A model generated the notes under the pieces. That model ran no database searches, was not told where the DNA came from, and saw nothing but the letters and a program-made list of their open reading frames with translations. 47,530 bases of DNA from Pleurocapsales cyanobacterium LEGE 10410 (GTDB taxonomy: Bacteria > Cyanobacteriota > Cyanobacteriia > Cyanobacteriales > Xenococcaceae): positions 1 through 47,530 of the forward strand of contig JADEXJ010000034.1 of the NCBI GenBank assembly GCA_015207195.1. The letters are read 5' to 3'. Within the stretch, counting starts at the first letter, position 1. Every line of letters begins with the position of its first letter. Below, piece after piece: positions 33,421 through 37,604 of this stretch. The translations under genes were made by a program, and so were the position numbers.

Positions 33421-33502
33421 TCATAGTAAAATAGTAAAACTGCCTATCAATGCTAAGAATAGAGGCGATACGCGAATCAGAGTAAGACTAGCTCTTGCGC
33501 AA

Positions 33503-33576
33503 CAGGCCATTCAGGACTCGAACCTGAAACCTACGCCTTAGAAGGGCGGTGCTCTATCCAATTGAGCTAATGACCC
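33503..33576 (-). tRNA. tRNA-Arg (anticodon UCU)
   Basis: Read on the minus strand, the sequence folds into a cloverleaf. The acceptor pairs GGGTCAT with ATGGCCT (with G-T pairs). The D arm contains GCTCAATTGGATAGAGC, the anticodon arm CGCCCTTCTAAGGCG, and the T arm CAGGTTCGAGTCCTG with the invariant TTCGA. The anticodon TCT reads AGA and AGG (arginine). The 3' CCA is not encoded. It is transcribed toward acs, which ends about 135 bp away. Confidence 0.95.
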
Positions 33577-33766
33577 AGATTTGCCAAATTATCCTAACAC
33601 ATAGTTATACTATGTTGTCAAAAGTTGCCAAAAAATAGTTATCAAGGCAAAAATACCAAAACATAGCTAGAGATCGATTTGTTTGATCTAAGATTACTGC
33701 TCAAGCATCGCTGTTGGTCTGATTCAGTTTTTTGAACAACACCTACCAACTCAAATTACTATGTAT

Positions 33767-33779
33767 GTATACTGTATAC
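33767..33779. promoter_or_regulatory. Candidate GntR/FCD operator upstream of the gntR gene
   Basis: GTATACTGTATAC is an inverted repeat with two GTATAC half-sites and one central base. It lies 70 bp before the ATG of the GntR regulator. An identical 13-mer occurs at 37487-37499, 18 bp before the start of the M20 hydrolase. Operators of GntR/FCD regulators are commonly short inverted repeats of this size near their own promoters. Confidence 0.65.
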
Positions 33780-33849
33780 TTGAGCCGAATAATAACAGAT
33801 ATAATTCACAACAACATTTAGTAGCCTTCACTGAGTCCAAACTCAAGCT

Positions 33850-34527
33850 ATGATTGCTATTCAACGCAGCCAGTCTCTTCGAGAACAAGTATACCAAGCC
33901 CTAAGAAAAATTATTTTGTCAGGAGATTTAGCTTCTGGCGATCGCATAGTCGAAACTAAATTAGCCAAGCGGTTAAACGTCAGTCGCACGCCAATTCGTG
34001 AAGCGATCGGGCAACTGCATCGGGAAAAATTAGTAGTATCCCACCCCAATGGTGGTTTTCGAGTTACTACTCTGTCGCTCCAGGATGCGATGCAGCTTTA
34101 TGATTGTCGTATAGCCTTAGAACAGCTTTCGGTAGCGAGTGCCTGCGAACTAATCACTCCCCAGCAATTAGAGCAGTTAGAAAAATTGGTGCTATTGGCA
34201 GAAGCCACAGAATCGGAATCGAAGCAAACCGATAGCCAGAAACTATTAGACCTAGATTGTCAATTTCATTATCTCATAGCGGAGAGTTCGGCTAATCAAT
34301 GGTTATTAGCTTTGCTCAAGCAAATTTTTGACAAGATGGCATTATTACGAGTGCAAACTACGAAACACAATCCTCAAGTCTTAGAAATCCGTCTAGAACA
34401 TCGGCAGGTATACGAAGCGATCGCCGAACGAAACGTCGAGTTAGCTCAAAAAATGGTTAAAGAACATTTAATCGCCAGCAAAGCCAGAGTCGCACGAGAA
34501 CTAAAAATTATCAATAATTCCAAATAA
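33850..34527 (+). CDS. GntR family transcriptional regulator (FCD domain)
   Basis: This 225-residue regulator has an N-terminal winged helix-turn-helix (about 8-70: SLREQVYQALRKIILSGDLA, GDRIVETKLAKRLNVSRTPI, REAIGQLHREKLV) and a C-terminal FCD ligand-binding domain (about 78-218). Typical FCD residues that bind metal and carboxylate ligands are present (Asp in LLDLDCQFHYLI, and His in EIRLEHRQVYEAI and MVKEHLIASK). It is probably a repressor that responds to an organic acid or amino-acid-like molecule. It is followed 19 bp later by the allophanate-hydrolase-related gene in the same direction. The identical 13-bp operator found before itself and before the M20 hydrolase at 37469 points to autoregulation and a small regulon. 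Confidence 0.9.
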   Translation: MIAIQRSQSLREQVYQALRKIILSGDLASGDRIVETKLAKRLNVSRTPIREAIGQLHREKLVVSHPNGGFRVTTLSLQDAMQLYDCRIALEQLSVASACELITPQQLEQLEKLVLLAEATESESKQTDSQKLLDLDCQFHYLIAESSANQWLLALLKQIFDKMALLRVQTTKHNPQVLEIRLEHRQVYEAIAERNVELAQKMVKEHLIASKARVARELKIINNSK

Positions 34528-34546
34528 CCTACATCCAAATAGCACT

Positions 34547-34942
34547 ATGACAACAGCAACTAATATCAAACATATTTTTATCTGTGGTTCGGCTTTGAGA
34601 GGACAGCCAGACCATCAAAATCTGACCAACGCTAAGTTTATTAAAACCACCCAAACTCTGCCCCAATATCGCCTTCATGCAGCAGAAAACGGTTGGCATC
34701 CCGCCATTTATGCTGTAGAAACTGGAGGAATTAGTATTCCTGGGGAAGTTTATGAGATGACCAACGAACAGTATGAATACTTGCTGGCTAACGAACCACC
34801 TCACATGTATCCAGCTACGGTAAAATTGGAAGAAGGGGAAGCGATCGCCATGCTGTATCCGAAAGAACTGGTAGAACAGCATAATTGGCCCGATATTTCT
34901 CACTTGGGAGGCTGGGCTGCTTATAAATCAGCTAGTAGTTAG
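34547..34942 (+). CDS. Allophanate-hydrolase-related / gamma-glutamylcyclotransferase-like protein
   Basis: This 131-residue protein has the fold signature of the gamma-glutamylcyclotransferase-like / allophanate hydrolase C-terminal family. It starts IFICGSALRGQPDHQNL and contains PQYRLHAAENGWHPAIYAVE, GGISIPGEVYEMTNEQYEYL, and ends with PDISHLGGWAAYKSASS. In complete allophanate hydrolase (AtzF) this C-terminal domain assists decarboxylation after amidase attack. Here it is a stand-alone gene, and no matching amidase is adjacent. The 19-bp spacing and shared direction with the GntR gene suggest a common operon, and the GntR operator pair ties it to the M20 hydrolase. A role in ureide or N-carbamoyl compound use is inference. 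Confidence 0.75.
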   Translation: MTTATNIKHIFICGSALRGQPDHQNLTNAKFIKTTQTLPQYRLHAAENGWHPAIYAVETGGISIPGEVYEMTNEQYEYLLANEPPHMYPATVKLEEGEAIAMLYPKELVEQHNWPDISHLGGWAAYKSASS

Positions 34943-35003
34943 GGGAGCGCAGGCGTAAGCACGACGTTGTTATATGTCAGAAGATAAGGAGGAGTATAGG
35001 AGT

Positions 35004-35162
35004 ATGATGAACAGATTTCTAAGGCTTATTACTATCTATACCAAGCTGGAGATAGTTGGTAGTTTGATTCTGGTGGGTTGGCTTTTTGGCTACACTGTAT
35101 GCAGCTTAAATTCCCCAGAGCGATCGCCTAGTGGAACGAGAGTTACGAACCTTCAAAAGTAG
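35004..35162 (+). CDS. Small membrane protein (52 residues)
   Basis: The Shine-Dalgarno sequence AAGGAGGAG at 34986-34994 lies 9 bp before ATG 35004, which decides this start over the upstream ATG at 34974. The protein has a hydrophobic segment LEIVGSLILVGWLFGYTVCS (about 16-35), which would form one transmembrane helix, and a polar C terminus. I do not recognise the family. It follows the allophanate-hydrolase-related gene by 61 bp and may belong to the same transcript. The strong ribosome site makes it more credible than most ORFs of this size. Confidence 0.5.
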   Translation: MMNRFLRLITIYTKLEIVGSLILVGWLFGYTVCSLNSPERSPSGTRVTNLQK

Positions 35163-35166
35163 TTGT

Positions 35167-35199
35167 AGGGTGGGCAGAAAAAAACATCAAATGCCCACT
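35167..35199. terminator. Hairpin of the GTAGGGTGGGCA repeat family, possible terminator
   Basis: GTGGGCA (35170-35176) and TGCCCAC (35192-35198) form a 7-bp stem with a 15-nt A-rich loop. The word GTAGGGTGGGCAGA also occurs at 13919-13931 on the other strand. It lies immediately after the small membrane protein gene and before the convergent membrane-protein gene at 35250, so it could terminate either, but no T-tract follows. Confidence 0.5.
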
Positions 35200-35249
35200 A
35201 AAATTATTAGGCACTTTTAACTGTTCTTAAGGCAGTGTTGAAATAAGAT

Positions 35250-35984
35250 CTAAAGATTGCTATTAGTTCCAGATGCTCTATCAATTAAATGTTGTCTAAA
35301 AGTAAATTCAAACTGATAAAGGTAAGCTGCCGTGATAGTCCACAATATCAAACGCATCAAAGGGCGATAGATTGGTTGTCTTAGAATCATCAATGCAACC
35401 TGCACCCAAAAATCGATCCGATTGCTGATATAAAACCCCGCCTCTGAAGTTTCTAAACCGCAGTCAACCAGATTAAAATTCAATCCTGGCAAAATTGACA
35501 ATACCGAATCGCTAACAAGCATTGCCAGTATAGTTACAAGCAGAGCATATAAACCATACCACCAACTGACAATGCCAGGATAATATCCCCTTATTCTGCC
35601 TCTTTCTGTCGGATTGAGGTCTGGATAATATCGGTCTAGTAGTAAATATAAATAATGGTGGGCGAAGGCAACAATCGGAATTGGCAGCAATAAAGCTAAC
35701 GGAGAAATCAAAGCAATCAAACCGCCAACTATCGCCGAAATAAAGTTAACTATTCCAATCACGATCGCCTGAATTATTTGAGGCAGCAAATTGATTATCC
35801 AAGCCAAAAAAATGGCTGCAAAATAAAATAGCCAGGCGAAAAATATATAGATAACTGCAAACAGCTCGTGAATCGCGGGAATTAATAAAGTTGCTATTAT
35901 CAAAAGGGTTGCTAATAAAAAAGCATTAATCCAAGAGCTTAGGTTGGGGATTAGAACAGACCAGTTTCTCATTGTAGTACACAA
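35250..35984 (-). CDS. Hypothetical multi-pass membrane protein
   Basis: The 244-residue protein is strongly hydrophobic. Four or five spans lie within the first 115 residues (for example FLLATLLIIATLLIPAI and IALISPLALLLPIPIVAFAH) and at least two more after residue 145. A short polar loop in the middle, HHYLYLLLDRYYPDLNPTER, and an ending in RQHLIDRASGTNSNL complete it. I do not recognise the family. It is transcribed toward the GntR group. A possible role in transport connected with the group is suggested only by position. Confidence 0.65.
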   Translation of the reverse strand: MCTTMRNWSVLIPNLSSWINAFLLATLLIIATLLIPAIHELFAVIYIFFAWLFYFAAIFLAWIINLLPQIIQAIVIGIVNFISAIVGGLIALISPLALLLPIPIVAFAHHYLYLLLDRYYPDLNPTERGRIRGYYPGIVSWWYGLYALLVTILAMLVSDSVLSILPGLNFNLVDCGLETSEAGFYISNRIDFWVQVALMILRQPIYRPLMRLILWTITAAYLYQFEFTFRQHLIDRASGTNSNL

Positions 35985-36221
35985 ACTTTTGTCCTATTAT
36001 ATATTTTCCCAAGGCTAAATAAATGTAGTTTTCAATTCTTCAATTTAAAGTTAATGTATTCGTGTAATAAAAGTATTTACATTACGAGTTTCCTTACTCA
36101 AATAATTGCGAGCGACTAAGTTTGCTGCTCAATTTTTGCCAAATCGCTAATTACAAATTGCTTCGATATGGCTCGTATTTAAGGAACATCGGTCTGCCGA
36201 TTTCTCAGAAGACATAAAAAC

Positions 36222-37469
36222 TTATTTAGAGAGTTCTGAATCTAACTCGATTAAGGTTTGCAGCAACACGTTAGCACCGCGAACGCACTGTTCGGGAGAA
36301 GTATATTCGCTAGCATCGTGTGAGACTCCCATTTCACTAGGTACAAAAATCATCCCCATATCGGTGACTTGTGCCATTTCCTGAGCATCATGGCTGGCGC
36401 GACTGGGTAGATAAGTGTAACTAAGATTGAGCTTTTTACAGCAACGAGCGATCGCACTTTGAATTTGAGGTTCGGCTAAGGCGGGTTCGTTATGCAAACA
36501 GGGATTTAAACGTATTTGGGTATTGGTAGCAACGGCTATTTCTTCTAGATAAGTACGCAATTGTTCTAATAAGCTATCAATATGCAAACTGGAAAGATCG
36601 CGGATATCTAAGCTCATCTCTACCCAACCAGGAACGACGTTAGCAGCGTTGGGTAGAACCTGCATTTTACCCACCGTAGCTACCTGTTGTCCAGGAGTGT
36701 TACCGATTTTATTTACGGCTAAAATTACTCTTGCAGCAGCAACCAAGGCATCATGACGCATCGACATCGGAGTCGTACCTGCATGGTTGGCACTACCTTT
36801 AACTGTAATATTAAACCGCCTTTGCCCGACTATGCCCTCAACTACGCCAATTTGTTTGTTCATAGATTCTAAAATAGGTCCTTGTTCGACATGAAGTTCG
36901 ACAAAAGCAGCTATATCTTGAGAACTACGACGCGCAGTAGCAAGACTATCCCAATTTCCACCTATTGCTTTTAAACAAGAATATATATCCGTACCGTCGG
37001 GACGACGATAATAACCTGGATCATTAATAACTCTACCTGATATGGCTTTAGATCCAATCATGCTGCCTTCTTCATCGGTAAAGACAATTACTTCAACCGA
37101 GCGATTTAGCTGAAGCTGATGTTCTTTAAGGACTTGCACCGCTTCTAATCCCGCTAAGACTCCATAAGCACCGTCATAATGTCCGCCACAGGGAACAGTA
37201 TCAATGTGCGAACCCGTTGCTAAAGCTGGTGCAGCGGCATGTTTACCAGGATACTTACCAATAATATTGCCAGCAGCATCAATCCTTACCTCCATTTCTA
37301 TTTCTCTCATCCACTGTTGGACTAAATTACGCGCCTGGAGGTCTTCGTGGCTATAAGCAATCCGTTTAACGCCACCATTGGGTAGTGCGCCAATTGTAGC
37401 CAAACGAGCAATATTTTGATTTAGGCGATCGCCATTGACTAGCGGTTGAGTCGTAATTGTAGGTTTCAT
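36222..37469 (-). CDS. M20 family N-carbamoyl-L-amino-acid hydrolase / allantoate amidohydrolase
   Basis: This 415-residue enzyme belongs to the M20 amidase/hydantoinase-carbamylase family and should cleave N-carbamoyl amino acids or allantoate, releasing ammonia and carbon dioxide. Two-metal-site motifs are visible: GSHIDTVPCGGHYDGAYGVL (His85 and Asp96 region), FTDEEGSMIG (catalytic Glu and metal Glu pair), ELHVEQGPILE (metal His) and, near the end, LPSRASHDAQEMAQ with the metal-ligand His. The dimerisation domain lies between about 210 and 325. It cannot be decided between ureidoglycolate/allantoate and carbamoyl-amino-acid substrates. The operator GTATACTGTATAC lies 18 bp upstream, identical to that before gntR, so expression is probably under that regulator. 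Confidence 0.87.
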   Translation of the reverse strand: MKPTITTQPLVNGDRLNQNIARLATIGALPNGGVKRIAYSHEDLQARNLVQQWMREIEMEVRIDAAGNIIGKYPGKHAAAPALATGSHIDTVPCGGHYDGAYGVLAGLEAVQVLKEHQLQLNRSVEVIVFTDEEGSMIGSKAISGRVINDPGYYRRPDGTDIYSCLKAIGGNWDSLATARRSSQDIAAFVELHVEQGPILESMNKQIGVVEGIVGQRRFNITVKGSANHAGTTPMSMRHDALVAAARVILAVNKIGNTPGQQVATVGKMQVLPNAANVVPGWVEMSLDIRDLSSLHIDSLLEQLRTYLEEIAVATNTQIRLNPCLHNEPALAEPQIQSAIARCCKKLNLSYTYLPSRASHDAQEMAQVTDMGMIFVPSEMGVSHDASEYTSPEQCVRGANVLLQTLIELDSELSK

Positions 37470-37486
37470 CGATCTAACAGCTATAA

Positions 37487-37499
37487 GTATACTGTATAC
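37487..37499. promoter_or_regulatory. Candidate GntR/FCD operator upstream of the M20 hydrolase
   Basis: GTATACTGTATAC is identical to the 13-mer at 33767-33779 and ends 18 bp before the ATG of the minus-strand hydrolase gene. It would overlap the leader or start region of that transcript, a position suited to repression. Confidence 0.65.
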
Positions 37500-37604
37500 A
37501 GTTGTTCCAACCTATCACATTATTTTGTAGCAATTGGATAGTTGGTATACCGCTCCAACAGTGAGTCAGAATATAGCTGATTTAAGTTACCAAGAAGACT
37601 TGGA

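Follow-up and report, generated by a model that had tools for sequence, protein, structure and literature searches.

We analysed a 47,530-nucleotide stretch of DNA (hereafter the window) from Pleurocapsales cyanobacterium LEGE 10410, namely contig JADEXJ010000034.1, C216 in our numbering, in which a 13-bp word, GTATACWGTATAC, stands upstream of both a gene coding for a GntR-family regulator with an FCD domain and a gene coding for an M20-family amidohydrolase. Sites with this word lie beside genes for purine uptake and breakdown, and across the genomes compared the word tracks the presence of the regulator. On the basis of these observations, the word is very probably the operator of the adjacent GntR/FCD protein, which we predict to be a self-regulated repressor of purine and ureide catabolism. 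A preliminary description of the window had proposed such an operator, common to gntR and the M20 gene and serving autoregulation, and the genome-wide and comparative evidence presented here lends support to that prediction.

The word GTATACTGTATAC is palindromic except for its central base and consists of two GTATAC words one base apart; hence, the strand of a given copy carries no meaning. Exact copies of the 13-mer GTATACNGTATAC number just two in the window (Table 1), as the preliminary description had it, and the distance that it gave for the copy before gntR proved correct; the other copy is 17 bp from the M20 start codon rather than 18 bp. Scanning the window with GTATACNGTATAC at one or two mismatches retrieved no copy, and at up to three mismatches there were 10 matches versus 14.3 expected; given this lack of excess, the signal sits in the exact copies. 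A degenerate motif inside the window was ruled out on the same count. The whole genome (6,644,688 bp in 392 contigs) contains four exact copies and one copy with a single mismatch, against 0.64, 0.16, 0.22, and 0.12 exact copies expected under Markov models of order 0 to 3, respectively, which were fitted to about 97 kb of its sequence. A reversed control word, searched at up to one mismatch, is equally frequent in this genome (5 versus 5), with none of its five matches being exact. Among 100 genomes, the source genome being one of them, the reversed word has one occurrence in each of five, and a variant of the 13-mer with a 2-bp spacer is present in just three, one of them with the regulator, suggesting that the spacing is specific.

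All five sites of the source genome (four exact, one with a mismatch) adjoin gntR or purine genes, so the frequent occurrence at unrelated genes that had been named as telling against an operator was not found. On contig C194, the third exact copy separates a xanthine-dehydrogenase-like operon, whose start codon is 53 bp away, from the gene for a purine permease of the NCS2 type (Xan_ur_permease), whose start codon is 70 bp away; the best models for the dehydrogenase subunits are XdhB and XdhA (68.1 bits, under the cut-off of 310, and 654.7 bits, under the cut-off of 780). The fourth, on C233, lies 54 bp before a porin gene (por_somb, 349.7 bits; cut-off, 100) that adjoins a gene for 8-oxoguanine deaminase (663.6 bits; cut-off, 532). 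The copy with one mismatch, on C63, is found 185 bp before a gene of the xanthine-permease cluster, which is followed by that for HpxO, the FAD-dependent urate hydroxylase (611.9 bits; cut-off, 500). The allantoinase PuuE is also encoded in this genome (C85; score over cut-off). Thus, the regulon is scattered across the genome instead of being the small local one initially envisaged. The earlier suggestion of a nitrogen regulon holds as far as its allantoate-type version goes, with purines and ureides being indicated rather than N-carbamoyl amino acids; a regulon for N-carbamoyl amino acids only was ruled out, as the partner genes are purine genes.

The distribution of the word was determined in two samples. 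The first comprised 100 genomes, the source genome among them, and its GntR orthologs had to align along most of the protein with an identity of at least about 49%; the second was drawn from across the phylum (386 genomes, of which 350 were new), with an E value of <= 1e-30 as the threshold. Special cases are the ortholog of genome G005, split over two contig ends, and that of G008, with an internal stop. Weaker GntR matches (e.g., those of G017, G089, and G097, at 31 to 33%), a second copy in G091 (49%), and the gntR fragments of G002 and G003, two genomes without a site, were not taken as orthologs. The exact word occurs in 16 of the 23 ortholog-bearing genomes of the first set (43 sites) and in 1 of the 77 others; in the 350 further genomes, the corresponding counts are 5 of 8 (11 sites) and 8 of 342 (one site each). 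Over the combined 450 genomes this amounts to 21 of 31 with the regulator versus 9 of 419 without it (Fisher p = 8e-22, kinship ignored). Of the nine sites in regulator-less genomes, seven are inside open reading frames (ORFs), and no gene labelled as belonging to the set starts within 500 bp downstream of any of the nine.

The comparison with the pathway genes is equally direct. An M20 gene (E <= 1e-80) is present in 34 genomes, and the word was found in 15 of the 20 that have a GntR ortholog and in none of the 14 that do not; PuuE exceeds its cut-off likewise in 34 genomes, 21 with an ortholog and 13 without, and the latter have no site. The absence of the word from M20-bearing genomes lacking GntR indicates that its distribution tracks the regulator and not the pathway. 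With 15 of 20 genomes retaining the word, the pair is also not missing from relatives that keep both genes, which the preliminary description had raised as a contrary outcome; among the other five, a copy with one mismatch is present in G014, G021, G070, and G043, and the region read of G030 contains none. In the genomes with a gntR remnant (G002 and G003) or an interrupted gntR (G008), we found no site, no M20 gene at E <= 1e-80, and no PuuE over the cut-off, with G008 having a shorter M20-like ORF.

For each of the 54 sites in genomes that have the regulator, we then examined the flanking DNA, labelled the neighboring genes, and repeated the count. Gene calling relied on a simple script that takes the longest ORF, and each cluster owes its name to a single representative. 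Called starts can be too long, as for gntR of G206, whose ORF begins 4 bp from the site and whose protein match begins about 160 bp away. Fifty of the sites were assigned to gntR (14 sites before it) or to other genes of the purine/ureide set (36 sites). The M20 gene accounts for 16 sites, one of them shared with gntR, and the porin for six; at three others, the NCS2 permease gene is on one side and the xanthine-dehydrogenase-like operon on the other. Two sites each are found before AH_C (allophanate-hydrolase C-terminal-domain) genes, before hpxO, and at genes for a Rieske oxygenase, and single sites precede a xanthine-type permease gene or separate genes for an EamA permease and an Asp/Glu/hydantoin racemase. 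Operon context alone was the basis for four assignments, to EamA (L073), EamA2 (L071), and c28/ABC (two sites, L082), the contexts being EamA followed by PuuE, EamA followed by xdhBA, and, for two sites, a c28-gntR-PuuE run with the ABC gene opposite. The L087 site is 366 bp from the M20 gene; the L149 site is 205 bp from hpxO and, in the opposite direction, just 26 bp from a DUF2808 gene.

Two of the recurrent target families deserve separate comment. The porin is termed an "iron uptake porin" by NCBIfam (L053:5297-7111); six genomes have the operator at this gene, five of them with 8-oxoguanine deaminase nearby, and we suggest that this operator-bearing porin may be a purine channel. The VanA-type Rieske oxygenase is repeatedly found together with HpxO, permease, or UraD genes (loci L073, L082, L086, L090, L157, and L161) and carries the operator in two of these (L082 and L157).

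The gntR product is a 225-amino-acid protein in which profile searches recovered an N-terminal GntR winged helix-turn-helix (PF00392; 66.8 bits; cut-off, 27; 1.4e-18) and a C-terminal FCD domain (PF07729; 87 bits; cut-off, 24.3; 1.7e-24). It falls short of the PhnR equivalog TIGR03338 (124.3 versus 271.5 bits). Residues D136, H140, H184, and H206 align with residues of Thermotoga maritima TM0439 (3sxy) and are retained in 23, 22, 23, and 23, respectively, of the 23 sequences compared (22 genomes), such that the Asp and three His residues of the predicted FCD metal site are conserved as in metal-binding relatives. In the same 23 sequences, the recognition segment VSRTPxREA is nearly invariant. 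The exact operator before gntR in same-family genomes is 41 to 77 bp from the start codon, and once 208 bp; a second exact copy is found 389 bp from the gntR start in L078 (genome G023). The operator likewise precedes gntR in G241 (77 bp) and in G206 (measured to the start of the protein match, as given above).

Analysis of promoter geometry provides a hint as to the mode of action. In 10 same-family sequences the exact operator lies 17 to 35 bp before the M20 start codon, and nine of these promoters have a T[A/G]TGNT element whose end lies at a constant 14 nt upstream of the operator; if this element is a -10 box, then the M20 operator comes just after the transcription start. In four other M20 promoters, the operator is 58 to 83 bp from the start codon. 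In L150 it lies 23 bp before hpxO, and in our reading the operators of the porin and gntR genes are upstream of an apparent -10 element. Such mixed positions suit a repressor. A scan for consensus promoters gave 12 promoter-like matches versus 10.2 in shuffled sequences, none of them just upstream of operator 2, and a single weak match (33827-33854) between operator 1 and gntR; the geometry is accordingly drawn from the comparison of promoters and our reading of it. Upstream of the M20 gene there is, in addition, a second and weaker GTA-N7-TAY word, GTATACCAACTAT, read by eye at 37538-37550 of the window on the minus strand. A word of this form also occurs upstream of the M20 genes of L055, L057, L065, and L067; its start is 51 bp (in L055, 52 bp) from the operator on the upstream side, a distance of roughly five turns of the helix, and it may be a second regulator site or a part of the promoter.

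Combining these observations, we infer a mechanism in which GntR would bind GTATACWGTATAC before its own gene and before scattered genes for purine uptake and breakdown, which code for the porin, NCS2 permeases, xanthine dehydrogenase, urate hydroxylase, the allantoin-step operons, and allantoate amidohydrolase. The predicted repressor would sit on or next to the promoters and would be released when a carboxylate made late in the pathway, either allantoate or a ureidoglycolate-like acid, occupies the FCD metal site. As the putative inducer we propose a carboxylate from the ureide branch, for instance allantoate, bound to the metal.

Several points weigh against this interpretation. As the genomes are related, p values overstate the independence of the observations. 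Ten of the 31 regulator-bearing genomes lack the exact word; six of them have a copy with one mismatch, located by gntR or the M20 gene in G014, G021, G070, and G362, before pbuX in G355, and, in G043, before an ABC gene in a run that extends as far as the M20 gene, and no copy at one mismatch or fewer was detected in the regions read of G008 (with its broken gntR), G026, G030, and G419. G023 has gntR with two operators and none of M20, PuuE, and HpxO over the cut-off, and its regulator may be an orphan or may belong to a pathway that is being lost. Four of the 54 sites are unassigned (G005:C189, G263:C67, G263:C1, and G007:C99:22276), the third being at a gene for an NMT1-type transporter protein and the last near a contig end. 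Four sites fall inside called ORFs (L062, L079, L082, and L156), which we take for over-long or spurious calls in L062, L082, and L156 and for an over-long AH_C gene in L079. The xanthine-dehydrogenase-like subunits of the source genome score under the NCBIfam cut-offs, the 13-mer does not resemble the FadR-subfamily consensus, and the evidence for repression as such is promoter geometry.

This last point bears on the possibility that the GntR protein activates the purine/ureide genes, or regulates them both ways, instead of repressing them. HpxS of Klebsiella pneumoniae is listed in a passage of PMC4609117 among GntR activators or dual regulators, which counts against a repressor here, and the operators of gntR and the porin gene, upstream of the apparent -10 element, are where an activator could be accommodated in our reading. 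The M20 operator, 14 nt downstream of the -10-like element and close to the start codon, and the hpxO operator of L150 are in contrast placed where a bound protein would block transcription, and we consider activation unlikely. The notion that the two copies in the window are chance occurrences of an AT-rich palindrome draws on the shortness of the word and on its nine single copies in the 419 genomes without the regulator, seven of them within ORFs; against the excess of exact copies over every Markov expectation, their placement by purine genes, and conservation across several families, we regard it as vanishingly improbable.

A further candidate reader of the word is the global nitrogen activator NtcA, acting at nitrogen-scavenging genes. 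Purine use is nitrogen scavenging, and each GTATAC half contains GTA and TAC; according to portions of PMC3898017, NtcA binds GTAN8TAC centred near -41.5, ahead of a TAN3T box. At only six of 55 sites can one half be extended to GTAN8TAC, namely at four before porin genes and two before M20 genes. In the four porin promoters, out of six (L053, L057, L063, and L075), the gene-proximal half of the operator also serves as the left arm of the perfect GTAN8TAC, which is followed by N22 and TAATTT, the canonical arrangement, in three and by N22 and TAGGTT in the fourth (counted by hand); the other two porin promoters have GTAN8CAC. As the porin sequences are homologous, the four overlaps count for close to one observation, and the two M20 extensions are on the start-codon side, from which activation by NtcA is unlikely. 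More generally, the 13-mer is GTA-N7-TAC, one base short of the NtcA site, and NtcA is encoded in all 100 genomes (over the cut-off in 98), the word being present in only 17 of them and in none of those 14 with an M20 gene and no GntR ortholog. NtcA thus fails to explain the word, and we judge this reading highly unlikely. The overlap nevertheless suggests that the NtcA activator and the GntR repressor may compete at the porin promoter. By extension, one may tentatively conceive of a two-key switch, in which GntR would gate the entire pathway, from a dedicated porin of the outer membrane to allantoate, the porin operator would share one half with a canonical NtcA site, and the stand-alone AH_C protein would act in the ureide branch as an enzyme not yet described. 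If this speculative scheme were true, the presence of substrate and nitrogen hunger would compete for the same bases of the porin promoter.

The genes around the two operators in the window are listed in Table 1. The gene after gntR had been described as related to allophanate hydrolase; it is indeed related, but its product contains the C-terminal domain alone (57.2 versus 511.05 bits against the allophanate hydrolase model, covering positions 440-562 only). An allophanate hydrolase/urea amidolyase locus was ruled out, as a full protein with the amidase domain was not encountered. In L057 and L148 the operator precedes the AH_C gene by 199 and 42 bp, respectively. Stand-alone AH_C genes recur beside gntR and, elsewhere, beside PuuE, and their product may have an enzymatic role in the ureide branch that has gone unrecognised. 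The M20 protein has 415 amino acids and scores 446.4 bits with PRK09290.1-5 (cut-off, 399), below the stricter AllC equivalog TIGR03176 (303.9 versus 597.75 bits); among solved structures, its nearest relative by sequence is an N-carbamoyl-L-amino acid hydrolase. It is best read as an allantoate amidohydrolase, the choice of allantoate, a substrate that sequence does not settle, being made because of the regulon context. A protein of 244 amino acids encoded between gntR and the M20 gene gave no family match in Pfam or NCBIfam. On the other side of gntR there is a tRNA-Arg gene (anticodon tct; 33502-33577, minus strand), beyond which lies what we take to be an acetyl-CoA-synthetase-like gene. 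NtcA of this genome scores above the cyanobacterial cut-off, in keeping with a cyanobacterial source, and the relatives named in the genome-contig scan are Myxosarcina and Pleurocapsa metagenome-assembled genomes.

Table 1. Predicted operators, promoter element, and genes at the gntR-M20 locus (window coordinates)
Feature	Coordinates	Strand	Remarks
Operator copy 1, GTATACTGTATAC, predicted autoregulatory site	33767..33779	.	70 bp before gntR ATG (33850)
gntR, predicted repressor of the GntR family; FCD ligand domain at the C terminus	33850..34527	+	Pfam GntR + FCD
Stand-alone AH_C (allophanate-hydrolase C-terminal-domain) protein, 131 aa	34547..34942	+	Pfam AH_C 6e-29; co-directional with gntR
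M20-family amidohydrolase, best read as allantoate amidohydrolase	36222..37469	-	NCBIfam PRK09290.1-5
Operator copy 2, GTATACTGTATAC	37487..37499	.	17 bp before M20 ATG (37469, minus strand)
Possible -10 element (TGTGAT)	37514..37519	-	Ends 14 nt upstream of operator 2; putative function

An autoregulated GntR/FCD regulon for a catabolic pathway is of a known kind, and for the operator and regulon reported here we found no description: the open-access full texts that we searched yielded none of the operator, the regulon, or a cyanobacterial purine GntR, RegPrecise and most subscription papers being outside the search. The same texts also yielded no substrate-specific regulator of cyanobacterial purine breakdown. 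Our analysis provides a regulator, an operator, and a set of genes with which the use of purines and ureides as a nitrogen source by cyanobacteria can be put to the test, in a setting where excerpted accounts report purine exudation for Prochlorococcus and for Nostoc associated with peat moss. It also offers functional hints for genes known at the family level, i.e., those for the "iron uptake" porin, the stand-alone AH_C protein, the EamA permeases, and the VanA-type Rieske oxygenase. Further, a 13-bp operator that is nearly unchanging across several families is convenient for studying how GntR/FCD proteins read DNA.

Among characterized systems, the closest in architecture are Atu1419 of Agrobacterium fabrum and TM0439 of Thermotoga maritima, which likewise combine a GntR winged helix with an FCD domain and, in the portions available of PMC7797058, have a metal site of three His residues and an Asp or Asn, as predicted for this GntR. 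According to the same portions, Atu1419 represses catabolic genes via the palindrome ATGTATACAT, which includes GTATAC; its targets are hydroxycinnamic acid genes and its proposed effector is folate, whereas the operator reported here has two GTATAC words one base apart, and the host, the pathway, and probably the ligand differ from those of both proteins. A 2015 survey of the FadR subfamily used the same method, i.e., a shared operator plus gene context; its table, in the part accessible, includes 0 cyanobacterial regulators, and its consensus has TKGT/ACMA boxes 3 nt apart, in contrast to the 13-mer, which lacks GT-N3-AC about its centre (PMC4494728). In terms of pathway, the counterpart is HpxS of K. 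pneumoniae, likewise a GntR-family regulator tied to purine and ureide catabolism according to PMC4609117, which cites for it a paper whose title names an allantoinase and guanine deaminase cluster; the likeness, drawn from description rather than from sequence or operator, is between a single gene cluster in Klebsiella and scattered loci here. The NtcA regulon, finally, likewise covers nitrogen-scavenging genes through GTA/TAC half-sites and overlaps that of GntR at the porin, but its sites have an N8 spacing where the present word has N7, and the word tracks gntR rather than NtcA.

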